Shown here: piece by piece, positions 13,989-61,662 of the stretch | How the letters are laid out: every line of letters begins with the position of its first letter | Position numbering within the stretch: the first letter of the stretch is position 1 | From: Pseudomonas sp. FP1742 | GTDB lineage: Bacteria; Pseudomonadota; Gammaproteobacteria; Pseudomonadales; Pseudomonadaceae | Assembly (NCBI RefSeq): GCF_030687145.1 | Contig: NZ_CP117460.1 | Location: forward strand, 5,828,001 to 5,892,000 | Reading direction: 5' to 3' | DNA: 64,000 nt | Translations under genes and position numbers: made by a program | The notes under the pieces: generated by a model | What the model saw: only the letters and a program-made list of their open reading frames with translations | What the model was told of the DNA's origin: nothing | The model's database searches: none

Positions 13989-14169
13989 CCGTCTCTCGAA
14001 ATCGCTAATGGAAACTGCCCTAGGGCAAAACTAATCAGACAACTTTATAAAAGCTGTCACGTATTCAGTTGCTCACTCTGTAACCCTTGCCGGGCTTTTG
14101 TTCTTCAACGAGCCAACAACCCGGTTCGCCCCCCAAACCGCAAGCGAACCGTCAATCAGGTACTACGTG

Positions 14170-42425: not shown

Positions 42426-42953
42426 ATGAGCTACAGCAAGATTCCGGCTGGCAAAGACCTGCCGAACGACATCTACGTCGCGATCGAGATCCCGGCCAAC
42501 CACGCGCCGATCAAATACGAAATCGACAAAGACAGCGATTGCCTGTTCGTTGACCGTTTCATGGCCACCCCGATGTTCTACCCGGCCAACTACGGTTACA
42601 TCCCGAACACCCTGGCTGACGACGGTGATCCCCTCGACGTGCTGGTCGTGACCCCTTACCCGGTTGCTCCAGGTTCGGTGATCCGCGCGCGTCCAGTCGG
42701 CATCCTGAACATGACCGACGACGGCGGCGGCGATGCCAAAGTCATTGCAGTTCCACACGACAAGCTGTCCCAGCTGTACGTGGACGTGAAGGAATACACC
42801 GACCTGCCAGCCCTGCTGATCCAGCAGATCGAGCACTTCTTCGCGAACTACAAAGACCTCGAAAAAGGCAAATGGGTGAAGATCGAAGGTTGGGACGGTG
42901 CAGACGCCGCCCGCGCCGCGATCACCAAGTCGGCTGCTGCCTATAAAGGCTGA
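42426..42953 (+). CDS. ppa: Inorganic pyrophosphatase
   Basis: Family I soluble pyrophosphatase, 175 residues. Signature regions: [39 protein letters not shown] (metal-binding DxDPxD) and [19 protein letters not shown]. It hydrolyses pyrophosphate to drive biosynthesis. It has its own -10 box and a strong terminator. Confidence 0.98.
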
Positions 42954-43003: not shown

Positions 43004-43167
43004 TGGGCGTCTGAAACGCCTTTAACAAGGGGTTTTCAACCGCTCGGCCTGGGTGTTTGCCTGTTTAATTTTTACCAAAAGCGTCTTACATCCAGTCTTA
43101 AATTTCCCTCGAAATTTGAACGGGTCGTTTATTCAAACCCCCATCCTGCGCCCGTAAACTCGTGTTT

Positions 43168-43914
43168 ATGAAAAAGAACACTAGCGGCCCACGGTTTAGA
43201 GCGCTCCTCGAAGCAGCCAACATCACAACGACAGGATTTGCCGCTTTCTTCGACACGGAAGCGCAAAATATCCACAACTGGTACACCCGCGGTGTGCCCG
43301 CTTACCGCATGGAAGAAGTCGCCAGACTGTTGTCCGTCAACAGTGACTGGCTGAAAACCGGCGAAGGCCCGAAAGAGTCCACACGCCTGCGCGTACTCGA
43401 CCAGTCCGGCAACACCTTCGACGCCCAGGCCATCCGCGGCGTCTACACCGTGGTCGAGTCCATTGACGTCGAACTGCCGTTCTTCAAAGAAACCGCCACC
43501 GCCCCCGGCTCCAATAAAACCCATGTCGTCGAAGACCCCGGCCAATCCATCCGCCTGCCCCACAGCCACCTCGACTCCCTGGAAATCAAACATGCCGACG
43601 CCATCTGCACCCACATGATCGGTAACAGCATGGCCGAAAAAATTGAAGACGGTTCCACCCTCGCCATTGATCGCGGGTTGACGCAGATCATCGATGGCGA
43701 GATCTACGCGATCGAGCATGACGGAATGCTGCGGATCAAGTACCTGCACAGGATGCCGGGGAATGCGCTGCGGCTGCGCAGTCACAACCGTACTGAGTAC
43801 CCGGATGAGATATTCAGTGCCGAGCAGATCGATAAGCAGAACATCAGGGTATTGGGATGGGTGTTCTGGTGGTCCACGCTCAACAAACGCAGGCCGTCCG
43901 TACCGTTCCTGTAA
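43168..43914 (+). CDS. S24/LexA-like transcriptional repressor with N-terminal HTH (PrtR/CI-like)
   Basis: A 248-residue protein with an N-terminal CI-type HTH (FRALLEAANITTTGFAAFF) and a C-terminal S24 domain. The Ser/Lys dyad is present: Ser154 in MIGNSMAEKI and Lys191 in LRIKYLHRMPG. No Ala-Gly or Cys-Gly dipeptide, the usual self-cleavage site, is found in the linker. It may therefore not be cleaved by RecA-dependent induction. Homologues regulate pyocins (PrtR) or prophages, but no phage genes are seen here. It lies after the ppa terminator at the edge of the accessory region. Confidence 0.8.
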   Translation: MKKNTSGPRFRALLEAANITTTGFAAFFDTEAQNIHNWYTRGVPAYRMEEVARLLSVNSDWLKTGEGPKESTRLRVLDQSGNTFDAQAIRGVYTVVESIDVELPFFKETATAPGSNKTHVVEDPGQSIRLPHSHLDSLEIKHADAICTHMIGNSMAEKIEDGSTLAIDRGLTQIIDGEIYAIEHDGMLRIKYLHRMPGNALRLRSHNRTEYPDEIFSAEQIDKQNIRVLGWVFWWSTLNKRRPSVPFL

Positions 43915-44207: not shown

Positions 44208-44308
44208 TGCCTGAAATAAATCCCACCCTGTCCCAATCCCCCAAGCAAGGCCTGTCACCAGGCATCGATCCGTACGCCAGCACCCTCTCAAAAAACCGCC
44301 CTCCTCAA

Positions 44309-44333
44309 CTGTCATGGTCGCGCAACCATACAG
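44309..44333 (+). promoter_or_regulatory. Imperfect dyad upstream of the accessory cluster
   Basis: CTGT-ATGGT (one extra C) and ACCATACAG form an inverted repeat around CGCGCA, about 130 bases before the first gene. It is a candidate operator for the MocR-type regulator at the other end of the cluster or a leader hairpin. No direct evidence supports either. Confidence 0.35.
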
Positions 44334-44463
44334 TTCGTTGCCCACGCCCATCGCCGTACCGGTACTTCCTTCGCCAGGCTCCCTAATCTGCAGGTGTTCA
44401 CCAAGGCACCCACGCTTCAGCCCGCCAATGGCCCATAAAAATACAATAGAAAAGGAGTTTCAA

Positions 44464-45204
44464 TTGAACACTGATGAAACAGTGGTTGTCACCGGAGTGA
44501 CATCAGGCATTGGTCTGGCCTGCGCCAGAAAGTTGATAGAACAGGGAAACAAGGTAATTGGGATCGGGCGCAGAACCGAGCGCCTCAATGCACTTGGCGA
44601 CGAACTGGGCGAACGTTTTTATCCCTTGAACTGCGATGTTCGTGACATCGACTCACTCAATACACAGTTGAAACAACTTCCTGATGCATTTGCCACTATC
44701 AGCAAACTCATCAATAGCGCCGGTTTGCTTCAGGGACAAGGGACGTTACTGGAAGTCTCGGACGCTCAAATATCCACCATGCTGGAGACCAATGTCCACG
44801 GTTTGATCAATGTCACTCGGGCGGTATTGCCCAAACTGATAGAAAGCGGTTGCGGGCACATCATCAACCTGACTTCGATTGGCGCTCACTATCACTATGC
44901 CGGTGGCCATGTCTATGCCGCGTCCAAGGCCTTTGTCGACCACTTCGGACAATGCCTGCGCACCGAACTGGTGGGGTCTAGGGTCCGGCTGACCAACATC
45001 GCTCCCGGGAAAACCCGCTCAGAATTTGCCTTGGTTCAATTTGCCGGCGATCAAGCCAGAGCCGACCGGGTGTACAGCACCCTGACGCCGCTTGAGCCGA
45101 TGGATGTTGCCAACTCGATCCTCTGGGCCCTGCATCAGCCCACCCACGTCAATATTAATCTTATTGAACTAATGCCTGCTGATCAGGAACTTTCGTACCG
45201 GTGA
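44464..45204 (+). CDS. Short-chain dehydrogenase/reductase, first gene of accessory cluster
   Basis: A 246-residue classical SDR: VVVTGVTSGIG (residues 7-17) binds NAD(P), NSAGLL, the serine in NLTSIGAHYHYAGGHVYAASK and the YxxxK catalytic pair are present. The start is TTG at 44464 with AAAGGAG six bases upstream; the in-frame ATG at 44314 adds 50 low-complexity, proline-rich residues that do not belong to the fold. The next gene starts four bases after the stop. The substrate is unknown; the setting suggests a tailoring oxidoreductase. Confidence 0.87.
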   Translation: MNTDETVVVTGVTSGIGLACARKLIEQGNKVIGIGRRTERLNALGDELGERFYPLNCDVRDIDSLNTQLKQLPDAFATISKLINSAGLLQGQGTLLEVSDAQISTMLETNVHGLINVTRAVLPKLIESGCGHIINLTSIGAHYHYAGGHVYAASKAFVDHFGQCLRTELVGSRVRLTNIAPGKTRSEFALVQFAGDQARADRVYSTLTPLEPMDVANSILWALHQPTHVNINLIELMPADQELSYR

Positions 45205-45208
45205 CCCC

Positions 45209-46408
45209 ATGAGCCAATCTCTTGCCCATTACTATGTCAGAAACAAACTCACACATAAGTTGATCAGCAAGCGTGTGCTGTCACCTATTTCACTTTCCCA
45301 GCAACCTCCGGCTGATTTGGTACAGGCACTTTGTATTGAAAGTGAAGTATCAAAGTTGTCAGCTGTTTATGCCCAGTTCCAACACTCGGACGATGGCCAG
45401 ACGGGCCTTCCCCGTTACATGCCATTTTATCGTTTCATTCAGTCCAAGTTCCCTGGCTTTCAATGGCAGGTCCGTTCCACTCAAGGCAAGAAAACCTTGA
45501 TTCTGGACAAGCCGTACATCAACCAAAGCCGCCCTTCGCTATTGAATTTGCTGCTGTGTGCCATCAACGACAACACCGCCACGACGCCGGCCTTGAAAGT
45601 GCGATACCCCGCCATGCGAGAACTACCGGACGAATTGGTGGTGGATCTTGAGCAGGCCTTTGAGCGCCTGTCATTTACCCAATCCGCCCCGCACTTTGTC
45701 GCGCGTTTTGCCCAGGCCCTGGCCAAGGGACTGGCCGGTGAAACCATTACCCTAGTCTCTCCGGTGTGCCCTGATTACGGCTACGAAAACAAGAATGGTC
45801 GCCTGCGTTATACCTTCGAACATCTGGGCGAAGGCATCGGGCTGGTGGCCGGACGCGTGGTCAAGACCCTGCCTGACCTGCAAGCCGTGCTGAAAAAGCA
45901 TGGCATCGATGCCCGGATCGCCGTGGCGGCCGGGGATTTTGAAGGGTTTGACGCCAGTACCCTGAACCGTCTCAAGGAAACACGCGAAGGCTTCGCTCGC
46001 AAACTGCGAATCAGCCAGCAGAAGATCCTCGACGTTCTCGGCCCTGACGCCGAGTCGATCATGATCGCCGAAGCTGCCGGTGGCGAGGACTGCTGGCATG
46101 CACTGACGGCTGAGGCCCAGCAGCGCCTGGCACATCAGGACAACGGCTGCATCGTCGAGGAGGATCTCGACTATGCCTCTATCTTCAGTGCACGACTGCC
46201 GCTCTATCAGGCCTGGCATCAACAACGCAGCAACGAAGAACTGATGCAGATCCTGTATGCCCAGGGTGCGGAGTATGCGGCCATCGGCAAGGTGTTTGCC
46301 CAGCAGTGGACCAACCCGATTGTCATCGGGGCGGATCACAATCGCATGCAACCCTTCTATTGGCTGTACAGCACCATTCCCGTCCTCTATCTGACCAGGG
46401 TTTACTGA
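45209..46408 (+). CDS. Protein of unknown family in accessory cluster
   Basis: A 399-residue soluble protein I do not recognise. It has no signal peptide or membrane segment. Noticeable segments: ETITLVSPVCPDYGYENKNG, FEHLGEGIGLVAGRVV, HGIDARIAVAAGDFEGFD in the middle (alternating hydrophobic strands suggest an alpha/beta fold), and NPIVIGADHNRMQPFYWLY near the end. The layout vaguely recalls the Dit1/PvcA isonitrile synthases (P...LGE...DARI), but clear shared motifs are missing. The 5' part is less GC-rich than core genes. Its stop overlaps the next start (TGATG), so it belongs to the same pathway. Confidence 0.7.
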   Translation: MSQSLAHYYVRNKLTHKLISKRVLSPISLSQQPPADLVQALCIESEVSKLSAVYAQFQHSDDGQTGLPRYMPFYRFIQSKFPGFQWQVRSTQGKKTLILDKPYINQSRPSLLNLLLCAINDNTATTPALKVRYPAMRELPDELVVDLEQAFERLSFTQSAPHFVARFAQALAKGLAGETITLVSPVCPDYGYENKNGRLRYTFEHLGEGIGLVAGRVVKTLPDLQAVLKKHGIDARIAVAAGDFEGFDASTLNRLKETREGFARKLRISQQKILDVLGPDAESIMIAEAAGGEDCWHALTAEAQQRLAHQDNGCIVEEDLDYASIFSARLPLYQAWHQQRSNEELMQILYAQGAEYAAIGKVFAQQWTNPIVIGADHNRMQPFYWLYSTIPVLYLTRVY

Positions 46409-47646
46409 TGAGCCCTCGTGAAAGTGCAGGTCAATGCACTCACTACTGTCAGTACGGGCCACAGGGCGATGTCCGCGCCAGCTATGCCCACCTGCCCTTC
46501 CAGGGTTTCTGGACCTGGCTGACCGGCAAGGGTCAGGCGCTCACGCCCGAGGCGTTAAAGCGCGCAATGAATGAGAACGGTGAGCGCTTTCTGGTGGTTC
46601 ATTTGCTGTTCACCTGGTCGGTGATGATTGCTCTGGTGATGCTCGGCCAGGCCGTTCTGGAGGGTGCCTTCTCCACGGGTACGGCGGTGTTGCTGGTACT
46701 GGTGGGCTGGGTCCTGATGGTTAACCGCTTGCGCAGCATGCAAGCGACCTTCCACTACTTGACCCACGGCGCGGTGCTCAAGGACAAGGCTCGCGCACAG
46801 CGCTATGCCAGGTTGTTTCTGACCACGCCGCTGCTGTACCAGGACTGGGACACCTATAACCAGAGCCATGTGCGCGAACACCACAATATCCACGTGTTGT
46901 GTTCTGACACGGATCCCGACCAGCGCTTCATCCGCGAGCAAGGTTTTTACCCGGGGATGCCTGAAGCGGTCTACTGGTGGCGGGTTTGCTGCACGCCCTT
47001 TCGCCCCGTTTACCTGATGCGCCAATGGCGTGGGACGTTGCTCGACAGCTTTGTTCGTCTTGACCGTCGTGAAGCGCTGTTTCGCTGGGTGTTCTGGGGC
47101 GTATTGCTGACGCTGCTGTGGGCCGCAGGCGGGTTGCAAGCCTTTGGCTTGATGTATGTGATCCCGCGTGCTGTGTTGTTCGAGCACTCCATGTGGCTGC
47201 AATTGTTTACCGAGCACCTGTGGTTCTACCACCGGGACGCCCACAGCACCGAGAAAAGCCACTATGGCCGACTGACCTGGGGGCGTTTCCAGGGCCGTAC
47301 TCCACCAGAAAGCGGGGTCGTCGCCCATGCCGCCTGGGTACTGAAGTGCGTGCTCTACGATCTGCCGGTGCGCTTGTATGTGTACCCGCAAGACTTGCCC
47401 AACCACGACGCGCACCACCGCCGCCCCAACGTCCATTACCGGCATATCGCCAATTATCGCGCCAGCGTCGAGCAACAGCCCTCGCCTTATGGCCCGTTCC
47501 TCGAAGTCTGGGGGTTCATGGCGGGGCTGTACCTGATTCGCGACCATTTGTGCCGAGGGGTGGCCGAGCCTTTTACCCCTCGGGAATCTGCTTCTCTCAA
47601 CACCCAAAACAGCCTGTACCCAACGTCCACCTCTCAAGGAGTCTGA
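46408..47646 (+). CDS. Fatty-acid desaturase/hydroxylase-like membrane di-iron protein
   Basis: A 412-residue membrane protein with three histidine boxes: HYLTH (116-120), HVREHH (154-159) and HDAHH (333-337), plus FHRDAHS-type extra histidines. Two hydrophobic segments (about 62-80 and 92-105) and others around 260-290 fit the membrane-bound di-iron desaturase superfamily. It could desaturate or hydroxylate an aliphatic or amino-acid-derived substrate. The ATG at 46408 overlaps the previous stop as TGATG; the longer frame from 46306 lies inside that gene. AAGGAG for the next gene is in its 3' end. Confidence 0.83.
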   Translation: MSPRESAGQCTHYCQYGPQGDVRASYAHLPFQGFWTWLTGKGQALTPEALKRAMNENGERFLVVHLLFTWSVMIALVMLGQAVLEGAFSTGTAVLLVLVGWVLMVNRLRSMQATFHYLTHGAVLKDKARAQRYARLFLTTPLLYQDWDTYNQSHVREHHNIHVLCSDTDPDQRFIREQGFYPGMPEAVYWWRVCCTPFRPVYLMRQWRGTLLDSFVRLDRREALFRWVFWGVLLTLLWAAGGLQAFGLMYVIPRAVLFEHSMWLQLFTEHLWFYHRDAHSTEKSHYGRLTWGRFQGRTPPESGVVAHAAWVLKCVLYDLPVRLYVYPQDLPNHDAHHRRPNVHYRHIANYRASVEQQPSPYGPFLEVWGFMAGLYLIRDHLCRGVAEPFTPRESASLNTQNSLYPTSTSQGV

Positions 47647-47649
47647 GCA

Positions 47650-48273
47650 ATGCAAGAGACGATTCAAGCTGCGAACCACGAACTGCAGAACAACGCCTAC
47701 GCTTCCCTCAAAGCCTCACAGCTGTTTTCTCAAGAAGACCTGGAGTACATGGAAGCGGCGTGCCAGGTCATTCCCAAAACCATCATCGAAATCGGTGATG
47801 TGGGCGAAGAAAACTTTCTCGCGGTGGGACGCTTCATGGAGGACCAAAAAGGCCAGTTGCCCGTGTATCGCAACGATCCCTACGGCAAACGTGTGGTGGA
47901 GATCCTCTCTTCGGGAAAAAGCCGTGAGTTCTTCAACGGCATCATGGAAGGCGAGTGCTTTATCCGGCGCTGCCAGTCCAACCTGCTGGAAGCCGGCAAC
48001 TTCATCGGCAAGCACATCGATACCTACAGCAACCTGGAATACCGCTACTCCGTGGTGATTCAGTTCGGCAAGCAATACGAAGGCGGCGAGTTTTTCATCG
48101 AGCATGAAGGCCGCGAGTCGCAATTTAAAACCGGCTATGCCGATGTGCTGATCAATCGCTGCGAGATTCCACACGGCGTGCGCAAGGTAGAGAGCGGCAC
48201 ACGCTCGTCCCTGGTGTTTTTCCTGAGCACCAGCCCATTGGACAAACCCAACCTCAACAACAAACAGATCTGA
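47650..48273 (+). CDS. 2-oxoglutarate/Fe(II)-dependent oxygenase
   Basis: A 207-residue protein with the facial triad of the prolyl-hydroxylase-like (PKHD) group: His122 and Asp124 in GKHIDTYS, His175 in CEIPHGV, and Arg185 for 2-oxoglutarate. The sheet in between (YRYSVVIQFGKQYEGGEFF) fits the double-stranded beta-helix. It presumably hydroxylates the pathway intermediate. It starts three bases after the desaturase-like gene with AAGGAG upstream. A 9-bp stem-loop follows. Confidence 0.87.
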   Translation: MQETIQAANHELQNNAYASLKASQLFSQEDLEYMEAACQVIPKTIIEIGDVGEENFLAVGRFMEDQKGQLPVYRNDPYGKRVVEILSSGKSREFFNGIMEGECFIRRCQSNLLEAGNFIGKHIDTYSNLEYRYSVVIQFGKQYEGGEFFIEHEGRESQFKTGYADVLINRCEIPHGVRKVESGTRSSLVFFLSTSPLDKPNLNNKQI

Positions 48274-48283
48274 TCGGTAGGTG

Positions 48284-48306
48284 CGTCCGCCCTTGCAGGG
48301 CGGACG
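48284..48306 (+). terminator. Stem-loop between oxygenase and exporter genes
   Basis: CGTCCGCCC pairs with GGGCGGACG around TTGCA, 10 bases after the oxygenase stop. No T-run follows, so it is likely an intercistronic hairpin rather than a full terminator. Confidence 0.5.
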
Positions 48307-48337
48307 TTCAACCGGCGAAACCAGAAGGAAACGTCCC

Positions 48338-49237
48338 ATGACGCAAACCAACGTAGCCAGCTTTCAAGAAACAAAGAATCAAGACCTGCAAGCCTATTTC
48401 CTGGGGCTCATTTCGGTCGCGGCCTTCGCCATGACCTTGCCGGCGGCAAAAATGCTCGCCGGCGACCTCAGTGCCCTGCAAGTCGGGTTCTTCCGGTCGG
48501 TGTTGGCTGCGTTTGCGGCAATTCCCTTTTTGCTTATCGGTCGGGCAAAGATTCCCAACCGCTCGCAAATCAAGCGAATGTTGCTGACGTCCACCGGGAT
48601 CGTTTATGGCTTTCCGATCCTCACCGCGCTCGGCATGCAATACGTTCCGGTCAGCCACGGCGGCGTGGTACTCGCTGCACTGCCGCTGTCCACTGCGATC
48701 TTCGGTACCCTCATCACAGGCACTCGCCCATCCAAAATGTTCTGGGCGGTCTCAAGCCTGGGCTTCCTGGTGGTGATGGCCTACACCGTCATCAAGTCGA
48801 ATGTCTCGGACATCTACATCGGCGATCTGGCGCTGCTGGGCGCCGTGCTGCTGGCCGGTTTTGGCTACGCTCAGGGCGGTGCACTTTCCAAGGAACTGCC
48901 GGGCTGGCAGGTCATGTGCTGGACCCTGGTCATCAGCCTGCCTGTGCTGCTTCCGGTCAGCCTCTGGCTCTATGACAGCCAGACCATCGCCAACCTGCCT
49001 GCACAAGGGGTCGCCGCCCTGCTGTTTCTGGCCCTGATCAACTCGCTGCTGGGCTTCTTCTCATGGAACCGCGCCCTGGCCCTGGGTGGTATCCAGCGCA
49101 TCAGCCAACTGCAGTTGCTGCAACCGTTCTTCACGTTTGCCTTTTCGATCTTCCTGATGGGCGAGCTGTGGAACTGGCTGACCCCGGCCGTCTGCGCCAT
49201 CGTCATCGTGCTGGTCTGGTTGTCCAAGCGCATCTGA
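48338..49237 (+). CDS. EamA/DMT-family exporter
   Basis: A 299-residue inner-membrane protein with about ten hydrophobic segments in two EamA repeats (SVAAFAMTLPAAKMLAGDLS in the first, ALLGAVLLAGFGYAQGGAL at the start of the second). EamA transporters usually export amino acids or small metabolites, which fits secretion of the cluster product or self-protection. The ATG at 48338 has AGAAGGA upstream; the longer frame is rejected because its added residues are basic and unrelated. Confidence 0.88.
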   Translation: MTQTNVASFQETKNQDLQAYFLGLISVAAFAMTLPAAKMLAGDLSALQVGFFRSVLAAFAAIPFLLIGRAKIPNRSQIKRMLLTSTGIVYGFPILTALGMQYVPVSHGGVVLAALPLSTAIFGTLITGTRPSKMFWAVSSLGFLVVMAYTVIKSNVSDIYIGDLALLGAVLLAGFGYAQGGALSKELPGWQVMCWTLVISLPVLLPVSLWLYDSQTIANLPAQGVAALLFLALINSLLGFFSWNRALALGGIQRISQLQLLQPFFTFAFSIFLMGELWNWLTPAVCAIVIVLVWLSKRI

Positions 49238-49343
49238 ACAGGGTCGCGCGCCGGCTAACCAGCGCGCTCCCATCCACGTGTTCCTCGAGGGGGCTTTCAG
49301 CCCGGCTGTTACCCCCTCTCCACACCCAGACGGAAACCCGCCC

Positions 49344-50123
49344 ATGACTTCTTCGAGCTTTTTTCGTCCCGCCTCAGAGCAACAATGGGACGCCTCGCAG
49401 TATGAAAACAACGCCCGTCTCGTCGCTCAGCTCGCCAACGGCGCGGTGGAACTGTTGGCCCTCAAGGCTGGCGAGCGGGTCTTGGACATCGGTTGTGGCG
49501 ACGGCTACCTGAGCGAGCAACTGGCTCGGCAAGGCGCTGAGGTGGTGGGTTTCGATTACAGCCCGGAACAGGTGAAAGCCGCACGTTTGCGCGGCCTGGA
49601 TGTGAGGTTGGGTAATGCCGAAGAACTGATCTTTCACCAAGAATTCGACGCAGTGTTCAGCAACGCCGCCATGCACTGGATGCGACGTGCCGACCAAGTC
49701 GCCCATGGGGCCTTTATGGCACTCAAACCCGGTGGACGTTTCGTCGGTGAGTTCGCCGGTGCCGAAAATGCCCTGCTGATCCGACGGGCGATCCACGGCG
49801 CCCTGGAGCGCCGATCCGTCGATGCGCAAGACATTGAGCCCTGGTACCTGCCCACCGCCGGAGAATACCAGCGGGTACTGGAGAACGCGGGGTTTCACGT
49901 CAGCTTCATCAGTTGGTTCGAACGACCCCTGGTGCTGGATTACTCCATTGCCCAATGGATACAAACCTTTGGTAGCCCTTACCTGACAGTGCTGCCGGTT
50001 GAAGCCCGCGCGGATTTTCTGGAGGAAGTGACGGAGGAATTGGCCAATGACCTGCTGGACTCCGATGGCCGATGGACAGTGGATTACACGCGCCTGCGTT
50101 TCAGAGCTGAAAAAAAGGCATAG
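49344..50123 (+). CDS. SAM-dependent methyltransferase (class I)
   Basis: A 259-residue methyltransferase of the methyltransf_11/trans-aconitate type. The SAM loop VLDIGCGDGY is at residues 47-55, followed by VVGFDYSPEQVKAAR, AVFSNAAMHWM and LKPGGRFVGEF. The C-terminal lid region has an aromatic pattern. The substrate is unknown; within the cluster it is probably a tailoring enzyme. It begins 106 bases after the exporter gene. Confidence 0.85.
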   Translation: MTSSSFFRPASEQQWDASQYENNARLVAQLANGAVELLALKAGERVLDIGCGDGYLSEQLARQGAEVVGFDYSPEQVKAARLRGLDVRLGNAEELIFHQEFDAVFSNAAMHWMRRADQVAHGAFMALKPGGRFVGEFAGAENALLIRRAIHGALERRSVDAQDIEPWYLPTAGEYQRVLENAGFHVSFISWFERPLVLDYSIAQWIQTFGSPYLTVLPVEARADFLEEVTEELANDLLDSDGRWTVDYTRLRFRAEKKA

Positions 50124-50196
50124 CCCCACAGAACCTGCCTGAAAAAGAGCGACACGCTGGATCAATCAGCAATACCGTCGAACTGGAATTAACGAT

Positions 50197-50535
50197 ATGT
50201 CTATAAAAACCAATGGATTAGCGTTGAAATCTTTTTACGCCGACGCCCGGGTGTGGTCGAACCAGGACGGCAAGCCGCTGTTCTGGATCGATGACATCAG
50301 CCTGTCCGTCAACGGCTTGGAAATCGTTGAAGACTCTTTCATTCAATCACTGCGCGACAATGATGAAGTCCAGATCCTCAACGGCGTCATCTACTCCTAT
50401 GAAGACCTGGGGGAAGTGGCCACCCTGGCGGAGTACTTCAAAAGCTGGCAAGACACCCATGACGCGCCGCCGGGCAGCAAGATCGACAAGCATCAGGCTA
50501 ACCCGGGGCCAAGTCTCAAACGCTGTGTTCCGTGA
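50197..50535 (+). CDS. Small hypothetical protein at the end of the accessory cluster
   Basis: A 112-residue acidic protein (SVNGLEIVEDSFIQSLRDND, YEDLGEVATLAEYFKSWQ). There is no signal peptide or membrane segment, and I recognise no family. Only a weak GGAA lies before the ATG. Its last 20 bases overlap the 3' end of the convergent MocR-type gene, so its real end may differ. It is kept as a gene because coding-like composition and spacing continue from the cluster. Confidence 0.5.
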   Translation: MSIKTNGLALKSFYADARVWSNQDGKPLFWIDDISLSVNGLEIVEDSFIQSLRDNDEVQILNGVIYSYEDLGEVATLAEYFKSWQDTHDAPPGSKIDKHQANPGPSLKRCVP

Positions 50536-51946
50536 CTCCGCGGGCTATTTCGCTACCGGTCTGAGCATCGATGAAACGCTTGAACTGGATGTCATTGCAG
50601 TGGCTGACGTTCAGGCGAATATATTGATCGTAATCCCGGGTGTTGCTGAACAACGAGCCTGGAGCCAGAAAGATGCGGGCGTCATGGGCCCGTTCGATCA
50701 GACGGCGAATATCCACCTGCGCGGGGAAACGCCCCCAGAGAAACAAACCATCCACGCTGGGTTCATCAAACACCACGCCTACCTTGCCCAGCCACTCCCG
50801 AGCCCTGACACGCTCCTGCATCACCCGCTGGCGCAGAACATCCAAATGATGTTGATAGCGCCCGGACTCCAGGGTGTAGGTCACGATGGTTTCGTCCATC
50901 GATGAGCCGCACAACAGGTTGTACATCTTCTGCTCCACCAGACGCTCGACAAAGGCCGGTGGGGCCGCCACATATCCAAGGCGCAGGGCAGGACTGAGCA
51001 CCTTGCTGAAACCGCTGATGTAAAAGGTGCGATTCAAACCGTCCAGGCTGGCCAGTCGAAGTGTTTGCTTGGCGGACAGCGAACCGAAAATATCATCTTC
51101 AACAATATGAAAATCATACTTCTCGGCCAGCGAAAGAATCTTGAACCCCTTGGCCGGGGAGGTATTGCCGCCCGTAGGGTTGTGGATCAGGGTCTGGGTC
51201 AGGAACAGTTTTGGCCGGTACTTGATCAGCATGGCCTCCATGGCCTCCAGATCCGGACCGTCCCCCATTCGTGGCACCGTGATGATGTTGAAATCCCGCC
51301 CCTTGATCAGCTTCAACTGCAGCAACAAGTAGCTCGGGTCTTCGACCAGCAGGTAATCACCGGGCTTGAGCATGACGTTGCGAATCAGCGAGAACGCGTG
51401 AGTAGCCCCCACCGTCACCACAATCTGGTTGCTGGAGGCATCGATTTGAACCTCTCGCAACTTGCGCGCAATCACCGAGCGCAATTGCTGACTCCCCGCA
51501 GCGGGGGCCGGAACGCTGCAAGACAGCGTGTTACGTATCAGCCGTCCGGTAACAGAAACGGGTACAGCGTCAGCCAGCCAGGACGGCGGAAAGTAACCTG
51601 AACTGACCGGGATATCGTATTGGGAAGGGTCCAGTGCGCGGTACAGAAACCCCGCATGCAGGCTGGACGGAGGAATCAACTCGTCCAGATCCTTGAGGCT
51701 TCCCGCAGGACTGGTCGCGAGAATGAAGTAACCGGCCCCGGGGCGGGACTCGATAATGTGCTGCGCCACGAGGTCCTCGTACGCGCTGCTCACCGTAAAG
51801 TTACTGACGCCCAATTGTTTGGAGAGCGCCCTGACCGAAGGCAACCGACTGCCTTGAACCCATTGGAAAGATTCAATACGGGCAATAATTGCATTTCGGA
51901 TCTGGTCCACCAACAGCGTCTTGCTGCTGCGATCTATCTCAAACAT
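50516..51946 (-). CDS. MocR/PdxR-type regulator (GntR HTH + aminotransferase-like PLP domain)
   Basis: A 476-residue fusion. Residues 1-75 form a GntR winged helix (RLPSVRALSKQLGVSNFTVS). The rest is a fold-type I aminotransferase domain with TQTLIHNPTGG, DIFGSL and SGFSKVLSPALRLGY, where Lys315 would bind PLP. Such regulators sense amino acids or PLP adducts and often control neighbouring transport or metabolism genes. It converges on the accessory cluster, overlapping the last small gene, so it is the likely local regulator. That suggests an amino-acid-like effector. Confidence 0.92.
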   Translation of the reverse strand: MFEIDRSSKTLLVDQIRNAIIARIESFQWVQGSRLPSVRALSKQLGVSNFTVSSAYEDLVAQHIIESRPGAGYFILATSPAGSLKDLDELIPPSSLHAGFLYRALDPSQYDIPVSSGYFPPSWLADAVPVSVTGRLIRNTLSCSVPAPAAGSQQLRSVIARKLREVQIDASSNQIVVTVGATHAFSLIRNVMLKPGDYLLVEDPSYLLLQLKLIKGRDFNIITVPRMGDGPDLEAMEAMLIKYRPKLFLTQTLIHNPTGGNTSPAKGFKILSLAEKYDFHIVEDDIFGSLSAKQTLRLASLDGLNRTFYISGFSKVLSPALRLGYVAAPPAFVERLVEQKMYNLLCGSSMDETIVTYTLESGRYQHHLDVLRQRVMQERVRAREWLGKVGVVFDEPSVDGLFLWGRFPAQVDIRRLIERAHDARIFLAPGSLFSNTRDYDQYIRLNVSHCNDIQFKRFIDAQTGSEIARGVTEHSV

Positions 51947-52268
51947 CTCATTCCCTTAATGAACAACCGCCACCATGGTCTTCCTGATGCCTGGCAAAGA
52001 GCAGGCCGGTGATCGACAGGCCATCGTGCAAGCACTCGCGTGCGAGATAGTAACCTGGAATTTTTGTAAGCAAAGTTTACGCCAGTGCTCGAAAAACACC
52101 TTGTCTATTCCGTCGGATAAAAGCTCAGGGATATGAATGGGTTTTCATGGGGTTAGCGGACATTTTGATCCAAAGGATCAAGGTAGAAGTCCTGTTTGCC
52201 AAATATCGGTTGAGAATGATCAGGTATTGGGTCCAGGGTAAGTCTCAGCAGCGCCGAGACTATCTCAT
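51947..52268. other. Intergenic region between MocR gene and mag operon end
   Basis: This gap has an AT-rich stretch next to the MocR start (probable promoter area) and a 7-bp dyad TTGATCC-AAA-GGATCAA at 52165-52181. No coding gene or RNA is recognised. Confidence 0.55.
52165..52181. promoter_or_regulatory. Isolated palindrome TTGATCC-AAA-GGATCAA
   Basis: Perfect 7-bp arms around AAA, about 220 bases upstream of the MocR gene start and about 90 bases beyond the last mag gene's stop. It could be a regulator site or part of a weak terminator; no partner is known. Confidence 0.4.
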
Positions 52269-53075
52269 TTACGGATAACTAAACCCCTTAACCAACGTCA
52301 ACTCCCCCACCGCCCGCATCGGCACCAGGAACGTCTCCATCTTTTCATCAGGCGTCCCCTCCTCCGTAATCACCGTCACTTGCGCGGTGGTCAGCGGTTG
52401 AACAGCCTCTTCCTGCCCTTCGTCATCACTGCGATACCCGCCGCCGTAGTAGTTCACGTACACCAGGTATTGCCCTTTGATCGGCGCCGGCATGGCGAAG
52501 ATTTCCGGGCCGTAGCCGGTGGTCACGTCCACATCCAGCGCCGCGCCATTGGGCGCGACACGATCGCCGTACCAGATGTGTGCGCCATCGGGGGTGATGA
52601 GGTGCAAGTCCAGATCCGTGCCGTCGCTGTCCCAGGCCAGCAGCACTCGCAACTTGGCTGGGGTGGCGCCGCCGTTGGCATTGAGGAACTGCGTGCGGTG
52701 GCGTTGTTGGCCATCGGGGCTGCGGACTTCAACGCTGTTGCTGCCTTTGGGGAATGAGAACGGGCGATCGAAACGGCCGGCGGGGTCAATTTTCAACGGC
52801 ATGCTGACGCCGTTGACGATCAGTTTGCCGGGTTCATTGCTCTTGGGGGTGGATTGGATCTGACCGGTAATGCGCGCCGTGTTGGCCTGGCCCACCGGGG
52901 TATTAACCGACGAAGCCGGGTAATTGACCGTCTGACGAAAGTTTTCGCCATCGCCTTCAGGAGCGCCGGTACGCCAGCCTCCCATGGGCGTATCAAGTTT
53001 CACGGCGGCAAATGTCGCCGGCAGTACGCAAAAAGCGCAAAGGAACAGCAAGACCTGTGGATAACGGAGTTTCAT
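52269..53075 (-). CDS. magF: YfaP-family protein (DUF2135), last gene of the mag/yfa operon
   Basis: A 268-residue exported protein with a signal peptide ending near VLPATFAA and a DUF2135 domain: LAWDSDGTDLDLHLITPDG, GAHIWYG, GPEIFAMPAPIKGQYLVYVNYYG. It is paralogous to the first gene of the operon. It is named by position after P. aeruginosa magABCDEF. The molecular role is unknown; the operon encodes a macroglobulin complex on the inner membrane and in the periplasm. Confidence 0.82.
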   Translation of the reverse strand: MKLRYPQVLLFLCAFCVLPATFAAVKLDTPMGGWRTGAPEGDGENFRQTVNYPASSVNTPVGQANTARITGQIQSTPKSNEPGKLIVNGVSMPLKIDPAGRFDRPFSFPKGSNSVEVRSPDGQQRHRTQFLNANGGATPAKLRVLLAWDSDGTDLDLHLITPDGAHIWYGDRVAPNGAALDVDVTTGYGPEIFAMPAPIKGQYLVYVNYYGGGYRSDDEGQEEAVQPLTTAQVTVITEEGTPDEKMETFLVPMRAVGELTLVKGFSYP

Positions 53076-54699: not shown

Positions 54700-57600
54700 T
54701 CAGTTGACCGTGACCTGACCGAGTGCCGGTTTCTGTTCCTGAGCCTGATGCTGTGGCGCGTAGACCTGCGTGAAACGCACCGGCGGCAGGTTGAACTGGC
54801 CTTTTTGCGAGAAGCGCACCAGATGACGCAGGCGCAACTCGCCGCTCAGCGCATCCACTGGCACCGCATAGGCCATTTGCCCCGGCTCGAAACGGGCCTT
54901 CTCCAGCGAGGTCGGCTCGGTGCCGGCCTTGCCCATCAGCTTGATGCCCCACGTGGTGCGCTCGACGTCCGCACCCGGTGGCAGCGGCACTTCGAGCATG
55001 CCGTAGCGCAGCGGTTTCGCCGCTTTGCTGGTAATGATCACTTCGTCCAGGTACAGGCTGTCGCTGGACAATGGCTTGGTGCCAACCGCTTCGAGTTTGA
55101 ATTCGAACGCTTCATCACCCGGCACCAGACGCGACAGGCGACGGGTGATGGTCACAGGCATCGGTTCGATTGCCGGTTGTTTGGTCTGGAAGCTCAACAT
55201 GGCGCGTAGCGGGCGCTCTTGCGTCCCGGTCAGCGACAACGCCGCTGGCACTGGCGAGGAGCCCTGCCACGTCCAATACATCTCACCGGTATCACTGTAA
55301 CGTTTCTTCCAGCCCTCACCCGGTGCCAGTGCGATGGTCGGAGAGGCCTGCTCGATGCTGCGTTGCAACCAGGTCAGCGCCAACGCGCGTTCCAGGGTCG
55401 ATTGCTGTGGCAACAGACGTTGCAACAACGCTTGCGCGTGGGCCTGATCGAAGGCTTGCAGCGACAGGTTCAGGGCTTCGACAAACGGTTGGGCGCTGGC
55501 GGCCACTTGTTGTTGCGCCGCGTCCACTTGGCGACTGAACGCCGGCGGCAGATTGACCTTGGCCTGACGCGCCAAAGACGCGGTCAGCACCCGAGCACTG
55601 GCCAGCCCCAAGGCCGAATCCGGATCGTTCATGACCAGGCTCTCTGCGCCATCGTCCATGACGCTCGCCGCTTTGCCCTCGCCGGCTTTCGCCAGATCAT
55701 CCATCAAACCGCTGAGCAACGTGTTCACCGGCAATTGCATCTGTTTGGCAAACGACAGAATCAACGCACGCTGCAACAGCGGCGTGTTCTGTGCCTGTTT
55801 CGCGTACACCTCCAGCACCCGCTGCCAATGCTCCGGCGGCAAAGTCAGTTCCAGCGCCTTGCTGGCGTGCCAGTCGGCGTAGTACGCATAGGCGGTGAGG
55901 AACGCATCCGGCTCGCCGTCAAAGCCCCACCAGGTGAAGCTCGCCGATGGCCCGGCCATTTGCACCAGCCGCAGACGGCTGTTCTGCATGATCAAACGCA
56001 AGCGATCGCGGATCTGTGGATTCGACGACAGCGTTGGATAGGCGATGCTCAGCGGCAGCAAACGACTGGCGGTTTGTTCGACGCCGCCGTACGGATAGCT
56101 CAGCAGATCATCGAGGGCCGAGCGGAACACCGCTTGCGGGCTGTCATCCAGACGCAGGCGAATATCCGTGGCATCCGTCGGCAGGGTCAACGGCGTGTCG
56201 CCGCTGACCGCGTCCAGGCTTTGGCTCTGGGTCACCTGCCAGCCTTCGCCAGTCGCGGTCAGGCGCACAGCCAGTGCGTCGGCGGTTTTGCCGTCCTGCA
56301 CCAGCTCGGCGGTCCAATCGCCATTGGCCAATGTGAACGCCGGCAACGGGATGTAGTTGATGCCGTTGTTCAAAGTGACCGGCACACGTTGCTCGGCACC
56401 GGCGTAATGAATCACCAGCTCAGCCTTGACCGGTTTCTCGGCCTGACTGAAAGCGAATACGCCAAGATCCGGTTTGTCGCCGCTGCGGAATTTGGTCGGG
56501 CCGCTCCACTTCAGGTACAGCGGTTTTTCCGAGCGCACGAATTGCTTCTTCTGCCCGACCTGGCCGTCATCGGCGATGGCCCGGGCGGTAATGCGCCAGC
56601 GGGTCAGGGAGTCCGGCATCTTGAAGGTGAAGCGGGTTTTGCCGTTGGCGTCGGTGATCAATTCCGGCTGCCACGCGGCGGTGTCGACGTCCTCACGACG
56701 CGGCCGCTCCAGCACTTTCACCCCGCGCTCGCTGCGGTTGGCTTTACCCGGCGCGCCAGGACTGCCCGGCAGTGCCACGTCGTAGCTGATGAACGACAGA
56801 CTGGCGCTGGTGCGCACGTTGTTACGGCGTGGGTGATAGAAGAACTGGTCGATGGTCGGCGCGACTTCCGGTTGCAACGCGTAGATCATTTCGTCGACCA
56901 CGCTGACCGTCAGGTGCGCCGGAATCGGCTTGCCGGCGAACTGGGTGGTGAGGTCCACGGACACGGTATCGCCGGGTTGATACGCCTCTTTGTCGGTAGT
57001 GATCGCCACATCGATCTGTGGCGCGACCACCTTGATACCGGCGTTCTGGAAGCTGTACTGACCGCCCTTGGTGTAGAGCACGGAGAACGTCAGGTTCGGC
57101 GCGAAGTTGTCTTTCACCGCGATGCGCGCGCGGTATTGGGTGTCGCTGAGTTTTTCCATCTTCAGCCAGTCGCCACCCTTGGACAGCAACGCCGTGGCCT
57201 CGACCTTGTCGCGCTCGAGCGACAACAACGCATCGCTGACCGGCTCGGGGAAAGTGATCAACGCGAGGGCTTCGTCACCAGCCTTGTACTCGGGTTTGTC
57301 GAGGACGATTTCCACGGTGCCGGGCACCGCTTTGACGCCATCACCCGTGACCGAATGGCCGGTCGCGCCAAGCACGCGGCCGTGATCATCCTTCAGCGTC
57401 AGGTTGTAAGTACCCGGACGGTCGAAGGCCAGGCTGAAGCCTTTGTCCTTGGCGGCAAGTTTGCCTTCGCCAGTGGTCTGGTCTTCGAGTCGCACCCAGC
57501 TGTAGCTGCTCGGGTTGACCGCTTTGCTTTGCTCGCTGCCACCTTCGTTGGCATAGCTGAAGGCAACCTTGCTGCCCACCGCGCTGAACCGTTGCGGCGC

Positions 57601-59274
57601 GCTCAGGCGGAAACTGGCGGCGCCCCGGTCGATGAGGATTTCCTTGGTAGTCTTGACCCGATACGCCGCACCATCGCTGGCGAATACGGTGAGCATGTAG
57701 CGGCTCGGTTTCTCGGCGGCGGGCAGGTCAAGCGTCGCGTTGCCCTTGGCATCGGTGGTCAGTTCGGCACTGGTCAGCTCCACCGGGAATTGCCCCAGGT
57801 ATTGCAGTTCGTTATCGACCATCGACAACTGCTGGGCGCGCAGGCTCAGGCTCACCTTGGCGTCGGCCACTGGTTTACCGTCCGGGTACAACAACACCAG
57901 ACTGCCCTTGACCGGTTCGCCGGTGCGGTAATCCTGCTTGGCCAGGTTCAGAGAAATCTCGAAGTGCGGCTTGATGTACTCAGCCACGCGGAAGGCACTG
58001 CTGTAGGCCTGATCCTTGTAGCTGAAACGCAGCTCATAACCACCTGCCACCGCATTGTCCGGCAACTGGAAACGGCCCTGAGTACCGGCCTTGGAATCGA
58101 GCTTCAACGCCAACGATTGCAACGCCGTGCCGGTGGCATCGAGCACCGTCACATTGACATCGGCAGCAGTCGGTGCCACGGAATCCCGGGCATTCTTGAA
58201 CTCGCGGCCGACGATTTTCAACGACACCCAATCACCCGGCCGGTACAGCGGTCGGTCGGTGAAGGCATAGAGTTTGGTGTCGTAGATTTCGCTGTCGTAA
58301 TAGAAGTTCTCGGAGACGAACACCCCGCCCTCTTCGTCTTCGCCGATCACGAACGAACGCTCGGGGCTGACGTGTTTCAGGCGCAGCAAACCATCGGCAT
58401 CGGTGGCGCCACTGCTCATCACGCCCAGGCCATCGGTCCACAGCACATTGACCTTCGGCACCGAACTGCCTTCGTGTTTGCGCGCAGCCCACACCAGCAA
58501 TTCATCACCGGCAATCTTGCTCACGGCCACGGTGTTGGAAACGAACACCATGGTGGTCGCGCGGTACTTGCCGATCAGCGCTTCCACCAGGTACAGGCCC
58601 GGCTTCAGGTTGCCCAACGGGATGTACACGTTGCCCGGCGAGACACTGACGAACTCGCTGGAAGAACCGACCAGTTTCACGCCTTCAGGCGGCTGGATCG
58701 GTTTGGCTTGCCACAGCGGATAACGGAATTGGCTGACCACCGGCAGACCCGGAATCAACGCGAATTGTGGCTGAGCGTCGTAAGGCGTTGGCGCGGCGAT
58801 GGCGGTGCCCATCTTCAGTTCCGGCACTTCCTCGGTGACTTGCTTGCGCGACTCGTAGGAAAACGCCCGCTGCATCACTCGACGGGATTTGCGGTACCAG
58901 TTGTCCCACAGGTACGCGAGGGTGTTCGACAGGCCTTCGCCCTTGAACTGGCCGTCGCTGACCACGCGGTGCAGGTTCTTCTGGCGCTTGAGGAAATCCA
59001 GCGGCTTGTCGATGCGATACACCCGAATGTCCGCACCGCCGTAAGGCTCCATGCGAAACCGGCGATAGTCACGACCCGGCGCTTCGAGGCGTACCACCGC
59101 CTGTTCATCGCTGGCGAAACTGCTGTCGGCCAGGAGAAAAAAGCTCTCACCGGCCACCGGCGTGTAGCCGCTCGGCTCGACGGTGTCTTCGGCGTTGACC
59201 GCCGACAGAGGCAGAACCAACGCAAGCAAAAGAGGCAGTTTTGAGCAAATGCGCAACATGCGGGCACCGATCAT
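54700..59274 (-). CDS. magD: Bacterial alpha-2-macroglobulin (YfaS/MagD type), thioester cysteine absent
   Basis: A 1524-residue envelope protein of the bacterial alpha-2-macroglobulin family, with a signal-like segment ([16 protein letters not shown]). It has MG-domain repeats ([57 protein letters not shown]) and a C-terminal toroid/TED-like part. Where thioester members have YGCLEQ, this one reads YGGVEQ (Gly1064 in place of Cys), so it cannot form the covalent thioester. The start overlaps the magC stop as ATGA; a second ATG lies at 59259. It probably traps proteases or aids wall-enzyme complexes, as for MagD and PBP1b. Confidence 0.92.
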
Positions 59275-59909
59275 TGGGAGAGAAAGTTCAGTCGATAGAC
59301 GCCGATGAAGTTGGGGTTGGCTGCGTCGGGTATCCATCGGGTGTCCTTCCATGTCATGAGTTGCTGCAGGCTTGCGGAGCGCATGCCGTTGTCGGTGGGG
59401 GTAGTGGTGCCGGTGTGATAGGCAATGAAGCGGCCCATCCAGATCATCAGGTGCTGGTCATCGCCCTGATCGAAAAACATCAGGTCGCCAGGCCGAGCCT
59501 GGGCCAGATCACGGCCGACCAGATGGCTGTTGAACTGAATCAGTTTGATCGCGTTGACGTAGGGCCCGACCTTGCCGCCGCCCTGCTGCCATTGCTGGGC
59601 GAGGCCGCGTTGGGCATCGCTCAGTTGCAACTCCGGCGGCAGGTAGCGGTTGGACAGGCCATTGCTGCGCAGCCATTTGTCGTCGTGGACTTTCAGCGCT
59701 TCGTTGGCGGCAAACCGCACCAGCCCGGCGCAGTCCTGCTGGTACCAGCGCGGGCTCGGGCCTTGGGTCAATTGTTCCTGGGCGATGCGCACGAACCAGG
59801 CGCGGAATACCTGGGATTGCTGCGGGTCGAGCGCGGCGGCTTCGCTGGCGAATGTGCGCGTCCCCAGCAGCAACGCCAGCAGACCAAGGCCTCGGATAAG
59901 TGCGGTCAC
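59271..59909 (-). CDS. magC: DUF1175 protein (YfaT/MagC)
   Basis: A 212-residue exported protein: GTG start overlapping the magB stop (GTGA), then a signal peptide ([13 protein letters not shown]). The domain has [16 protein letters not shown] and [25 protein letters not shown], a layout like NlpC/P60-type cysteine hydrolases (Cys in DCAGLVRF, His later). DUF1175 is the YfaT family. An ATG start at 59936 inside magB was rejected in favour of the coupled GTG. Confidence 0.82.
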
Positions 59910-61627
59910 AGGGCTTTCCACTCCAGCGGCAGCCATTGCCAGTGGCCGTCGGGCTCGCTGCCTTTGGGCAAGGTCAGGGCATATTTGCCGTAGCCGCCGA
60001 GGGTGCGCAGTTTCGGGATCAGGTAGGTTTGCGCGGCGTTGTAGAACACCGGCTCCATGTCCTGCGGCAGGCTGTCGAGGGTTTCCTGTTGCATCAGTTG
60101 CGCCATGGAATCGGGGCCGAAATAGATCGGCATCAGCAGGTCTTTGGGCAGCACGTCAGCCAACGGCGGGAAGCGTTTGTCGAGGGTGCCCAGCGCTTTG
60201 TCGACGAGTTTGTCGTCGAGGGAGAACAGCAGCGTCGAACCGTGGCGCGCCAGGCTTACGCGCATGAAGGCTTTGCCGGTGATCGCGTCTGGCTGCTCGG
60301 CATCCTTGGCCTTATAAGGACCGAAGTTGGAACTGACCTGACGCTGCCACTGATGGGTTTTACCGTCCTGTTTCTCGACCACCGGGAACGCGTGCTCGGC
60401 AACGTTGCCTTCGTAAGCACCGACCATCGAGCTGAACAGGTTGCCCAGGTCGCCGTCGAGTTTGGCGCCGTCATCGTCATTCAGGCTGGCCACCAGCAGC
60501 GGTGTGTACAGCCGCGAGTCGGCGTACCAGCACAGGCCGGCGGCACCGGCCATGTGTTCGGTGAGGGACTGGGCCACGGCTTCGTCGGCGCCGAGCTTCA
60601 CCAGCAACGGTTTCTGTTGTTCGGCGGCCAGTGGCAACGCTACGCAGGCGCTGGCACCCATGGGCATGGCTTGCCAGACCGGTTTGAAATCGAAATCCGG
60701 CTGGTTATCCACTTCGTCCATGGCCAGGAAGCTGTGCCAGCCCTTGTCGTCCATGTCGAAACGCAGGCCGGCGAAGTTCGGGATGAAGCGCTGGTAACCC
60801 ATGGCCAAAACACTGGAATTGACCGAAAGGCGTTGTTTTACCTCGGGCGCACGGGGCGGCAGGCCGAAGGCTTCGGGGAACAGTTTGTCGCCGTTGAGCA
60901 AGGCAGCGATCGCCTTGGTCGAAACGCTGCCGGTTTCCTCCAAGGCGCCGTTTTCCGGATCGTAGAGTTTGGCCGGATTGGACAGCACCACCAGCTTGTC
61001 GCCATGGGAGGCGAACACCAACGCCTTGCTGGCGTTGTAGTTGAGCTGATAGAGGGTGACGGTGTCGGCACCAACTTTCACTTCGCTGAGCTTGCTCAGC
61101 TGCGAATCATCCAGCGCCACTTTCGCCAGCGGCTCCAGCACCTTGGCCAGTCCGCCGCGATCCATCACCAACAGGAAATCCTTGAGACGCCCATCCGCCC
61201 CACGCCACAGCGCCACATCCGCCGGTTGATCGAAGAGCTGCTCGATCAGGCTGTCCTGCAGCTTCAGGTCATGCTCGTAAATGATCCGCCGCAGGCTGCC
61301 GATCAAGCCGAGACGGTCGGCGTGAGCTTCGTAATAGAAGACGAAATCTTCGGTCAGGGTTTCCTTGAGGAACGGCACGGCCAGCAGATCCTTGGGCAGC
61401 TGACTCAAGGAATGGGTTTCGAGCAAGCCGTCCGGCCGGCTCATGCCCAGTTTGTCACTGGCCAGTTCCGCAGGCGGAGCCTTGGGTTTGTTCAGGAACC
61501 ACCCCAACCCGCCTGCCACGCCGGCCACCAGGCATAGCCCGATCACCAGCGCTGGCCAGCGGCGAGGAGGTTTGGCAGCGGGTGCGGCGGCCGGGGAAGC
61601 GGCTGGTGGAATCGTGTTATCACTCAT
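59906..61627 (-). CDS. magB: DUF2138 protein (YfaA/MagB)
   Basis: A 573-residue inner-membrane-anchored protein: short cytoplasmic Pro/Ala-rich tail, one transmembrane segment ([20 protein letters not shown]), then a large periplasmic DUF2138 domain ([55 protein letters not shown] at the end). The ATG at 61627 is preferred to the GTG six bases upstream. Homologue of E. coli YfaA and P. aeruginosa MagB. The role is unknown. Confidence 0.83.
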
Positions 61628-61662
61628 GTTCACAAACCCAATTCATCCGTGGTGCGGGATGT

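Follow-up and report, generated by a model that had tools for sequence, protein, structure and literature searches.

We asked what is made by eight genes that lie close together downstream of ppa in Pseudomonas sp. FP1742, and which of their products could be the central enzyme. The window, meaning the whole stretch of DNA analysed, comprises 64,000 nucleotides (positions 5,828,001-5,892,000 of the single 6.67 Mb contig of this genome, NZ_CP117460.1), and coordinates below are those of the window unless another locus is named. The original prediction had seen here an uncharacterised accessory cluster for a small exported, perhaps amino-acid-derived, molecule: a short-chain dehydrogenase/reductase (SDR), an unknown protein, a membrane di-iron enzyme, a 2-oxoglutarate (2OG)-Fe(II) oxygenase, an EamA exporter, a methyltransferase and a small protein on the + strand, and then a convergent MocR-type regulator. 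The open reading frames (ORFs), with their order and strands, the Pfam matches and three histidine boxes in the di-iron protein bear out this gene list; what had been missed is that the unknown protein, on the evidence of a predicted fold, is probably the core enzyme, and that the methyltransferase and small protein belong only to the Pseudomonas-type version of the cluster. Our reading, to which we give a probability of roughly 60%, is that the eight genes make up a biosynthetic cluster whose product is small, amino-acid-like and exported, and whose core enzyme belongs to a previously undescribed family.

The eight genes are a real, recurring unit. A sample of 298 genomes of the genus contained the core gene 11 times, eight times as a close copy (83-100%, the FP1742 genome included) and three times as a distant one (26-27%). 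Exactly the same 11 genomes matched the di-iron profile at 448 bits or more, with the next best match at 140 bits, and in each of them the match ends of the two proteins lay 3-41 nt apart. Tallies for the core protein in broader samples were 2 of 398 phylum genomes (FP1742 and a Massilia) and 1 of 369 class genomes (FP1742); weak matches of the core profile in two genomes (G028, E 2e-4; G806, 4e-4) were dropped because they resemble SohB-type proteases by eye. Among named genomes, close copies of the core gene (at least 77% identity) were all from Pseudomonas, except for one metagenome-assembled genome (MAG) labelled Paucimonas.

Twenty-six distinct loci outside the window were compared (10 from the genus search, 20 fetched by a sequence pattern, five of these being repeats, and 1 from the phylum search), a gene being scored as present when a tblastn match to the window protein fell no more than 8 kb from the core. 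The complete eight-gene set stood in the same order at 12 of them, and the methyltransferase and small protein were detected only at these 12 Pseudomonas-type loci. Five further loci, at 48-52% identity, had the SDR, core, di-iron and 2OG genes in order (Halomonas, Herbaspirillum, Pseudorhodoferax, Hydrogenophaga and a Comamonadaceae MAG), four of them with EamA (a partial match in Pseudorhodoferax). Six far loci, namely three from Pseudomonas and those of a Rhodobacter MAG, Rhizobium skierniewicense and a Massilia forsythiae plasmid, kept the triad of core, di-iron and 2OG genes in varying order without the SDR, methyltransferase and small protein. A match to the MocR regulator was present at 18 of the 26 loci (25-96% identity) and lay ~9.6 kb off on the Massilia plasmid. 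The core and di-iron genes recur together in all 11 positive genus genomes, and the triad at 23 of the 26 loci, the opposite of the outcome that had been named as fatal to the original prediction; its picture of a dedicated unit, in which tailoring enzymes come with an exporter and a MocR regulator, holds at the 12 loci with the full set.

The proposed core enzyme is a protein of 399 residues (45209..46408, +, ATG at 45209), which matched nothing in Pfam or NCBIfam. Conservation was counted over 53 aligned members (alignment A6). Invariant in all 53 were the CPDY motif at residues 187-190 (45767..45778, +), which holds the candidate catalytic cysteine, and Q352, E355 and Y356 of a QxxEY motif (46262..46276, +). 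Within the GDFE motif at residues 242-245 (45932..45943, +), F244 and E245 were invariant, while position 243 was D in 51 members and E in 2. D376 was likewise invariant and its neighbour H377 was kept in 48 of 53 (46334..46339, +).

AlphaFold models of two members that are 25-28% identical both show the catalytic fold of tyrosyl-tRNA synthetase (TyrRS), covering residues ~144-399 of the window protein, and Foldseek matches indicate that this fold is common to cyclodipeptide synthases (CDPSs) and isonitrile synthases. Both models matched CDPS structures (5mlp, E 2.3e-3, query-normalised TM-score 0.34; 3s7t, E 2.1e-3, 0.31). Among the best 50 matches in both lists, the top query-normalised TM-score belonged to the isonitrile synthase PIsnA, with isonitrile product or L-Tyr (9dhm, 0.41, and 9dh4, 0.38, one per model, both below 0.5). 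MshC and CysRS, which are ATP-dependent class I ligases, matched more weakly (8hfn, E 0.036, and 3c8z, E 0.064, at best) and had TM-scores below those of TyrRS, CDPS and PIsnA in most rows. These fold scores of predicted models do not rank PIsnA, CDPS and TyrRS against each other. CDPS and PIsnA were not among the best 50 matches of a structure comparison by VIA, a result that excludes nothing.

Read by eye in the models, CPDY would lie in the loop that follows the first Rossmann strand, the site of the catalytic serine in CDPSs and of the start of the ATP site in aminoacyl-tRNA synthetases (aaRSs). TyrRS presumably carries its QxxD motif on the helix that corresponds to the one with QxxEY. 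Q352xxE355 thereby appears, again by eye, to match both TyrRS QxxD and the CDPS residues Y178 and E182 given in excerpts of PMC7566563. The core residues up to 398/399 align with TyrRS residues up to ~196-229, at which point the chain stops. Because we take the KMSKS motif of TyrRS to lie beyond that endpoint, the core protein, as modelled, ends upstream of the KMSKS region. No HIGH-like motif was found in it by eye, no separate tRNA-binding or anticodon domain was seen, and the TyrRS family PF00579 gave no match. The absent HIGH-like motif and the early chain end exclude an ordinary aaRS. By sequence the protein reads as neither a CDPS nor an isonitrile synthase, and its predicted fold makes it look like a third metabolite branch of the TyrRS fold, after those two.

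Several results weigh against this reading. CPDY was part of the pattern used for fetching, and the protein searches relied on 5-residue words, so its invariance is partly selected. Query-normalised TM-scores were just 0.2-0.41 among the matches listed and the N-terminal ~140 residues were hardly covered, while the alignments behind the two models share members, so that the models are not wholly independent. Profile comparison with hhalign gave a probability of 0.1-0.7% against seven PvcA-type proteins (from 16 PF05141 loci) and of 1% (P 0.05) against TyrRS, for which 11 sequences had been kept by length from 20 candidates; the latter comparison paired only the GDFE region of the core with TyrRS GDFT and was non-significant. 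Searches of PDB sequences with the core protein and its profile returned chance matches only. The kinship to TyrRS and PvcA is thus a matter of predicted fold and not of sequence. In addition, the triad is missing around the core protein at three of the 26 loci (a Kerfeldbacteria MAG, in which the core gene is present twice, a 3.9 kb contig of a Nealsonbacteria MAG, and a Pelomonas match at a contig end), and at two Pseudomonas loci with the triad no exporter of the types described below was seen.

What chemistry a TyrRS-like core would perform is the point at which the main alternatives divide. One possibility, which we regard as doubtful though the best of the rivals, is that the core works as a CDPS does, taking an aminoacyl-tRNA and forming an aminoacyl-enzyme on Cys187 or Ser184 to yield an amide, be it a diketopiperazine, a linear dipeptide or some other, for tailoring by the oxygenases. 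Structures of CDPSs rank with the top Foldseek matches for both models, and the known clusters likewise combine tailoring enzymes with a class Ic aaRS-fold core (the fold here being predicted) that is devoid of ATP motifs and of a separate tRNA-binding domain, as described for CDPSs in PMC4159871 and PMC7566563. The catalytic residues given there are S37, Y178, E182 and Y202 (PMC7566563). By eye only, position 184 of the core falls at the site of the catalytic serine; 46 of the 53 members have S there, a point in favour, 4 have T, 2 have C and 1 has A, and the single alanine speaks against such a role, as does the want of a clear conserved counterpart of Tyr178 (by eye). The CDPS family PF16715 did not match the window protein, and a scan of 45 members at E<=10 listed 15 families without it, although the HMMER filters remove most matches above E ~0.1. 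The core also lacks a consistent basic character (net charge 0 in the window copy, -9 to +46 over 26 members), and it differs from CDPSs in its CPDY and QxxEY motifs, in ~140 extra N-terminal residues, and in a setting of amino-acid-type exporters unlike those given for CDPS clusters.

Isonitrile-like chemistry appears unlikely: here the core would couple a free amino acid, through its amine, to a carbon donor (a sugar phosphate, for instance), with the 2OG oxygenase in the role of IsnB or PvcB. IsnA is as a rule partnered by a 2OG oxygenase, and one lies within 8 kb of the core at 23 of the 26 loci. Also in favour, known isonitrile synthases use L-Trp or L-Tyr with ribulose-5-phosphate, according to excerpts of PMC7949033, and the leading TM-scores of PIsnA point the same way. 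The oxygenase of our cluster is, however, a PF13640 protein, whereas IsnB and PvcB are TauD-type oxygenases, and the membrane di-iron enzyme is an addition relative to the PvcA/IsnA/PIsnA clusters. Neither the window protein nor any of 45 scanned members matched the isonitrile synthase family PF05141, profile support was lacking, and the KSP and SDG residues, invariant in seven PvcA-type sequences of one genus (alignment A4), fall outside the conserved set of the core. Elsewhere in the FP1742 genome, moreover, there are already two PF05141 genes of the genuine kind. Present evidence favours neither of these two chemistries decisively. As a side observation, those two genes are adjacent and over the cut-off (G000:C1:2475701-2478149; L082, L093), the second being longer with an oxygenase-like extension by eye; from their sequences the strain may also make an isonitrile.

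The partners of the core are two putative oxygenases. The di-iron protein (46408..47646, +, ATG at 46408), resembling membrane oxygenases and desaturases, has a HxxxH box at residues 110-114 (46753..46767, +), HxxxHH at 148-153 (46867..46884, +) and HxxHH at 327-331 (47404..47418, +), in the numbering of the window ORF 46426-47643. H148, H152, H153, H327, H330 and H331 were invariant in 17 of 17 aligned sequences, and H110 and H114 were at least 90% conserved. It matched no Pfam model itself, and the sole curated family that it matched is that of the guanitoxin enzyme GntB, an L-arginine hydroxylase (NF041365), to which it is only distantly similar (57 bits, where the cut-off is 380); none of the eight genes passed a guanitoxin-family cut-off. 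The 2OG oxygenase (47650..48273, +) matched PF13640 at 28.2 bits (cut-off 27) and PDB 6n1f at 109 bits, and retains HxD (H122-D124) and H175. The two oxygenases are fused naturally in two metagenomic proteins of 609-610 aa (P0081, P0083). These fusions probably adjoin the core genes P0023 and P0024, since the longest contigs match in size (8686, 13535). Separately, a sister di-iron family was seen in eight genus genomes at 112-140 bits; six of its regions were fetched and ORFs were listed for five. In one, the sister gene (PF00487) is near a LysE gene by Pfam (L072, 3351-7122), and in another near a MutE glutamate-mutase subunit, with a B12-binding match just below cut-off (L074, 6004-8797), possibly marking another amino-acid pathway.

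Clues to the product come from the exporters. Three families appear beside the triad at 20 of the 26 loci: EamA in the window, at 16 further loci of the Pseudomonas type or the group near 50% identity, and in Rhizobium; AzlC in Herbaspirillum and the Rhodobacter MAG; and LysE in one distant Pseudomonas (L021). Assignments were by Pfam for the window and four loci (L021, L032, L037, L038) and by tblastn to the window EamA for the others. EamA, AzlC and LysE are families that export amino acids, and an exported amino-acid-like product therefore seems likely from the sequences. At both AzlC loci a GNAT acetyltransferase adjoins the exporter (Pfam), the arrangement to be expected if N-acetylation served self-protection.

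On the mobilizable Massilia forsythiae plasmid NZ_CP051686.1 (L099, 32867-74054) the triad is embedded in a nonribosomal peptide synthetase (NRPS) cluster; the eight window genes themselves include no NRPS or polyketide synthase gene by Pfam, as had been predicted. The run there comprises the 2OG oxygenase, a 275-aa protein, the di-iron protein, the core protein, an adenylation-thiolation (A-T) protein, an NRPS of domain order TubC-C-A-T-TE and a small protein, followed by MFS, HlyD, ATP-grasp and phosphopantetheinyl transferase genes, and ABC transporter genes are also in the cluster. The adenylation domain of the A-T protein is fatty-acyl-like in appearance (AMP-binding_C_3 match), and that of the NRPS has, by eye from alignments, the code DLFNNALTYK, which we presume to resemble the alanine code of microcystin McyA and treat as a lead only. 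Penicillin acylase, aminotransferase and sterol-desaturase-like genes lie on the other side on the opposite strand, together with a gene that shares 49% identity with the window MocR over its C-terminal part. Among the distant Pseudomonas loci, L019 has LuxI, LuxR, FA_hydroxylase and penicillin amidase genes with the triad (Pfam), and L020 has similar ORFs. One reading accommodates all of these loci: the triad would make an amino-acid-like unit whose amine is free, exported as such by some lineages and carried in N-acylated or peptide form by others, in which an acylase would free it later. As for the small exported, perhaps amino-acid-derived, product of the original prediction, the exchange of EamA for AzlC or LysE and the Massilia NRPS context support a probable product of this class.

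The same acylase loci lend something to a different view, in which the di-iron protein is an acyl desaturase or hydroxylase and the remaining genes serve the modification of a lipid or signal. Many di-iron relatives match the fatty acid desaturase family PF00487, and distant triads keep company with FA_hydroxylase, penicillin amidase and LuxI/LuxR genes (L019, and similar ORFs in L020) or, in Massilia, with FA_hydroxylase, penicillin amidase and the fatty-acyl-type A-T protein. We consider this improbable: clusters of the window type have none of these genes and do have an amino-acid-type exporter, the nearest curated family, though far below its cut-off, hydroxylates L-arginine, the sister di-iron loci hold LysE (L072) and MutE (L074), and an acylase could as well strip the N-acyl group from a protected amino acid. 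A core that acts as a decoy or resistance aaRS paralogue or as a regulator, and forms no scaffold, is very improbable, for although aaRS paralogues with non-synthetic roles exist (excerpts of PMC9437257), the absence of visible ATP motifs and tRNA-binding domain makes the replacement of an aaRS unlikely, and the core has invariant residues of its own and is linked to both oxygenases at 23 of the 26 loci.

Returning to a biosynthetic cluster for an amino-acid-like compound, the anatomy of the unit suggests the following course. The core protein would bind an amino acid, whether free or tRNA-bound, within its TyrRS-like pocket and carry out a scaffold-forming step without ATP activation, with Cys187 as the putative nucleophile and E245, E355 and D376 holding the amino group or acting as a base. 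The di-iron enzyme and then the 2OG oxygenase would oxidise the scaffold in succession; we place these oxidations beside each other because the two enzymes occur as a natural fusion. The SDR may set the oxidation level and, in the Pseudomonas version, the methyltransferase may cap the product, which EamA would export in finished form, while MocR would sense an amino-acid- or PLP (pyridoxal phosphate)-linked signal and switch the operon. Pathways to Pseudomonas amino-acid antimetabolites such as methoxyvinylglycine likewise combine a small operon, an amino-acid exporter and Fe-dependent oxygenases; the cluster here differs in that the window has no NRPS and the core enzyme is unrelated.

Neither the family scans nor the open-licence PubMed Central (PMC) papers yielded a characterised match, a description of this gene set or a description of the core family, and within these searches the cluster is uncharacterised, as had been proposed. 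A 2026 review of aminoacyl-tRNA-dependent natural-product enzymes, which treats AcmF, SbzA, GNAT-fold transferases, CDPSs and PEARLs, mentions nothing like the core protein in the portions available (PMC12945691). As a kind of system the unit belongs with metabolic gene clusters whose core enzyme has a known fold, and the novelty would lie in the enzyme family and the gene set. An evenly balanced conjecture goes further: the core would be a new metabolite-making TyrRS-fold branch with its own cysteine chemistry, and together with its di-iron and 2OG partners would define an uncatalogued cluster class in Gamma-, Beta- and Alphaproteobacteria, whose amino-acid-like products are exported free or incorporated into NRPS peptides. 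The CDPS and isonitrile synthase side branches of the TyrRS fold each founded a natural-product class. A further branch, if true, would make the triad a new handle for genome mining and offer a small set of loci for testing, among them the plasmid on which the triad is part of an NRPS cluster, and it would bear on the metabolic reuse of an ancient tRNA-charging fold.

The whole unit sits on an inserted segment of ~8.06 kb (44214..52270), which bears out its description as accessory. DNA similarity between the window and one relative (G011, L066) ends at 44213 and restarts at 52271, with 660 bp between the two points in the relative, where ppa, an S24-peptidase/CI-like gene and the gene downstream of the insertion (52269-53075) are all kept. 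In another (G002, L065), the breaks at 44216/52271 flank ~9 kb of different genes, arsH/arsC- and copper-resistance-like by eye. The unit is thus cargo at a site whose cargo varies between strains. Counted over 1 kb segments, GC content was 0.52-0.61 within the unit; the upstream DNA had 0.56-0.63 and the downstream DNA 0.62-0.64, and only with the latter does the unit contrast clearly. The same downstream gene lies beside 2 of the 12 full copies (L012, L013) and is absent from the fetched flanks of the other ten. The cluster had been placed just after ppa (42426-42953); this requires correction, since an S24-peptidase/CI-like gene (43162-43914, by Pfam) lies between the two.

Of the remaining genes, the SDR (44464..45204, +) matched PF00106 at 155.8 bits; its TTG start at 44464 is preceded by AAAAGGAG, and homologue alignments begin at the same point. 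The EamA-family exporter (48338..49237, +) matched PF00892 at 96.9 bits, ATG 48338 being its most likely start judging from homologues, and the S-adenosylmethionine (SAM)-dependent methyltransferase (49344..50123, +, ATG at 49344) matched PF08241 at 69 bits. The small protein (50197..50535, +), with a conserved core of ~85 aa and a tail of variable length, matched no Pfam model and hit phrog_4254, a PHROG phage family with no assigned function (E 9e-10). We rejected it as a precursor of a ribosomally synthesised and post-translationally modified peptide (RiPP), no RiPP enzyme being recognised among the eight genes. The MocR-type regulator (50516..51946, -) combines GntR (PF00392, 46.6 bits) and Aminotran_1_2 (PF00155, 82.3 bits) domains. 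The di-iron ATG overlaps the stop of the core gene, the remaining gaps are 3-106 nt with revised starts, and the MocR and small-protein genes overlap by 20 nt at their 3′ ends. The SDR and MocR upstream regions shared no convincing operator-like repeat (one 11-mer), and promoter counts in them did not rise above shuffles. Of the PADLOC phage-defence models just two were matched, one for 2OG proteins in general and one for a methyltransferase domain of mad2.

Two loci carry additional genes: in L028 a gene with a cupin domain (14046-14834) separates EamA from the methyltransferase, and in Halomonas (L031, 14071-15279) a class V aminotransferase lies 3′ of EamA. Beyond the insertion, two paralogues that are 46% identical (52272-53075 and 61666-62427) flank large ORFs at 54700-59352 and 59906-61633, and their spacing of 9.3-9.6 kb is kept in six relatives.

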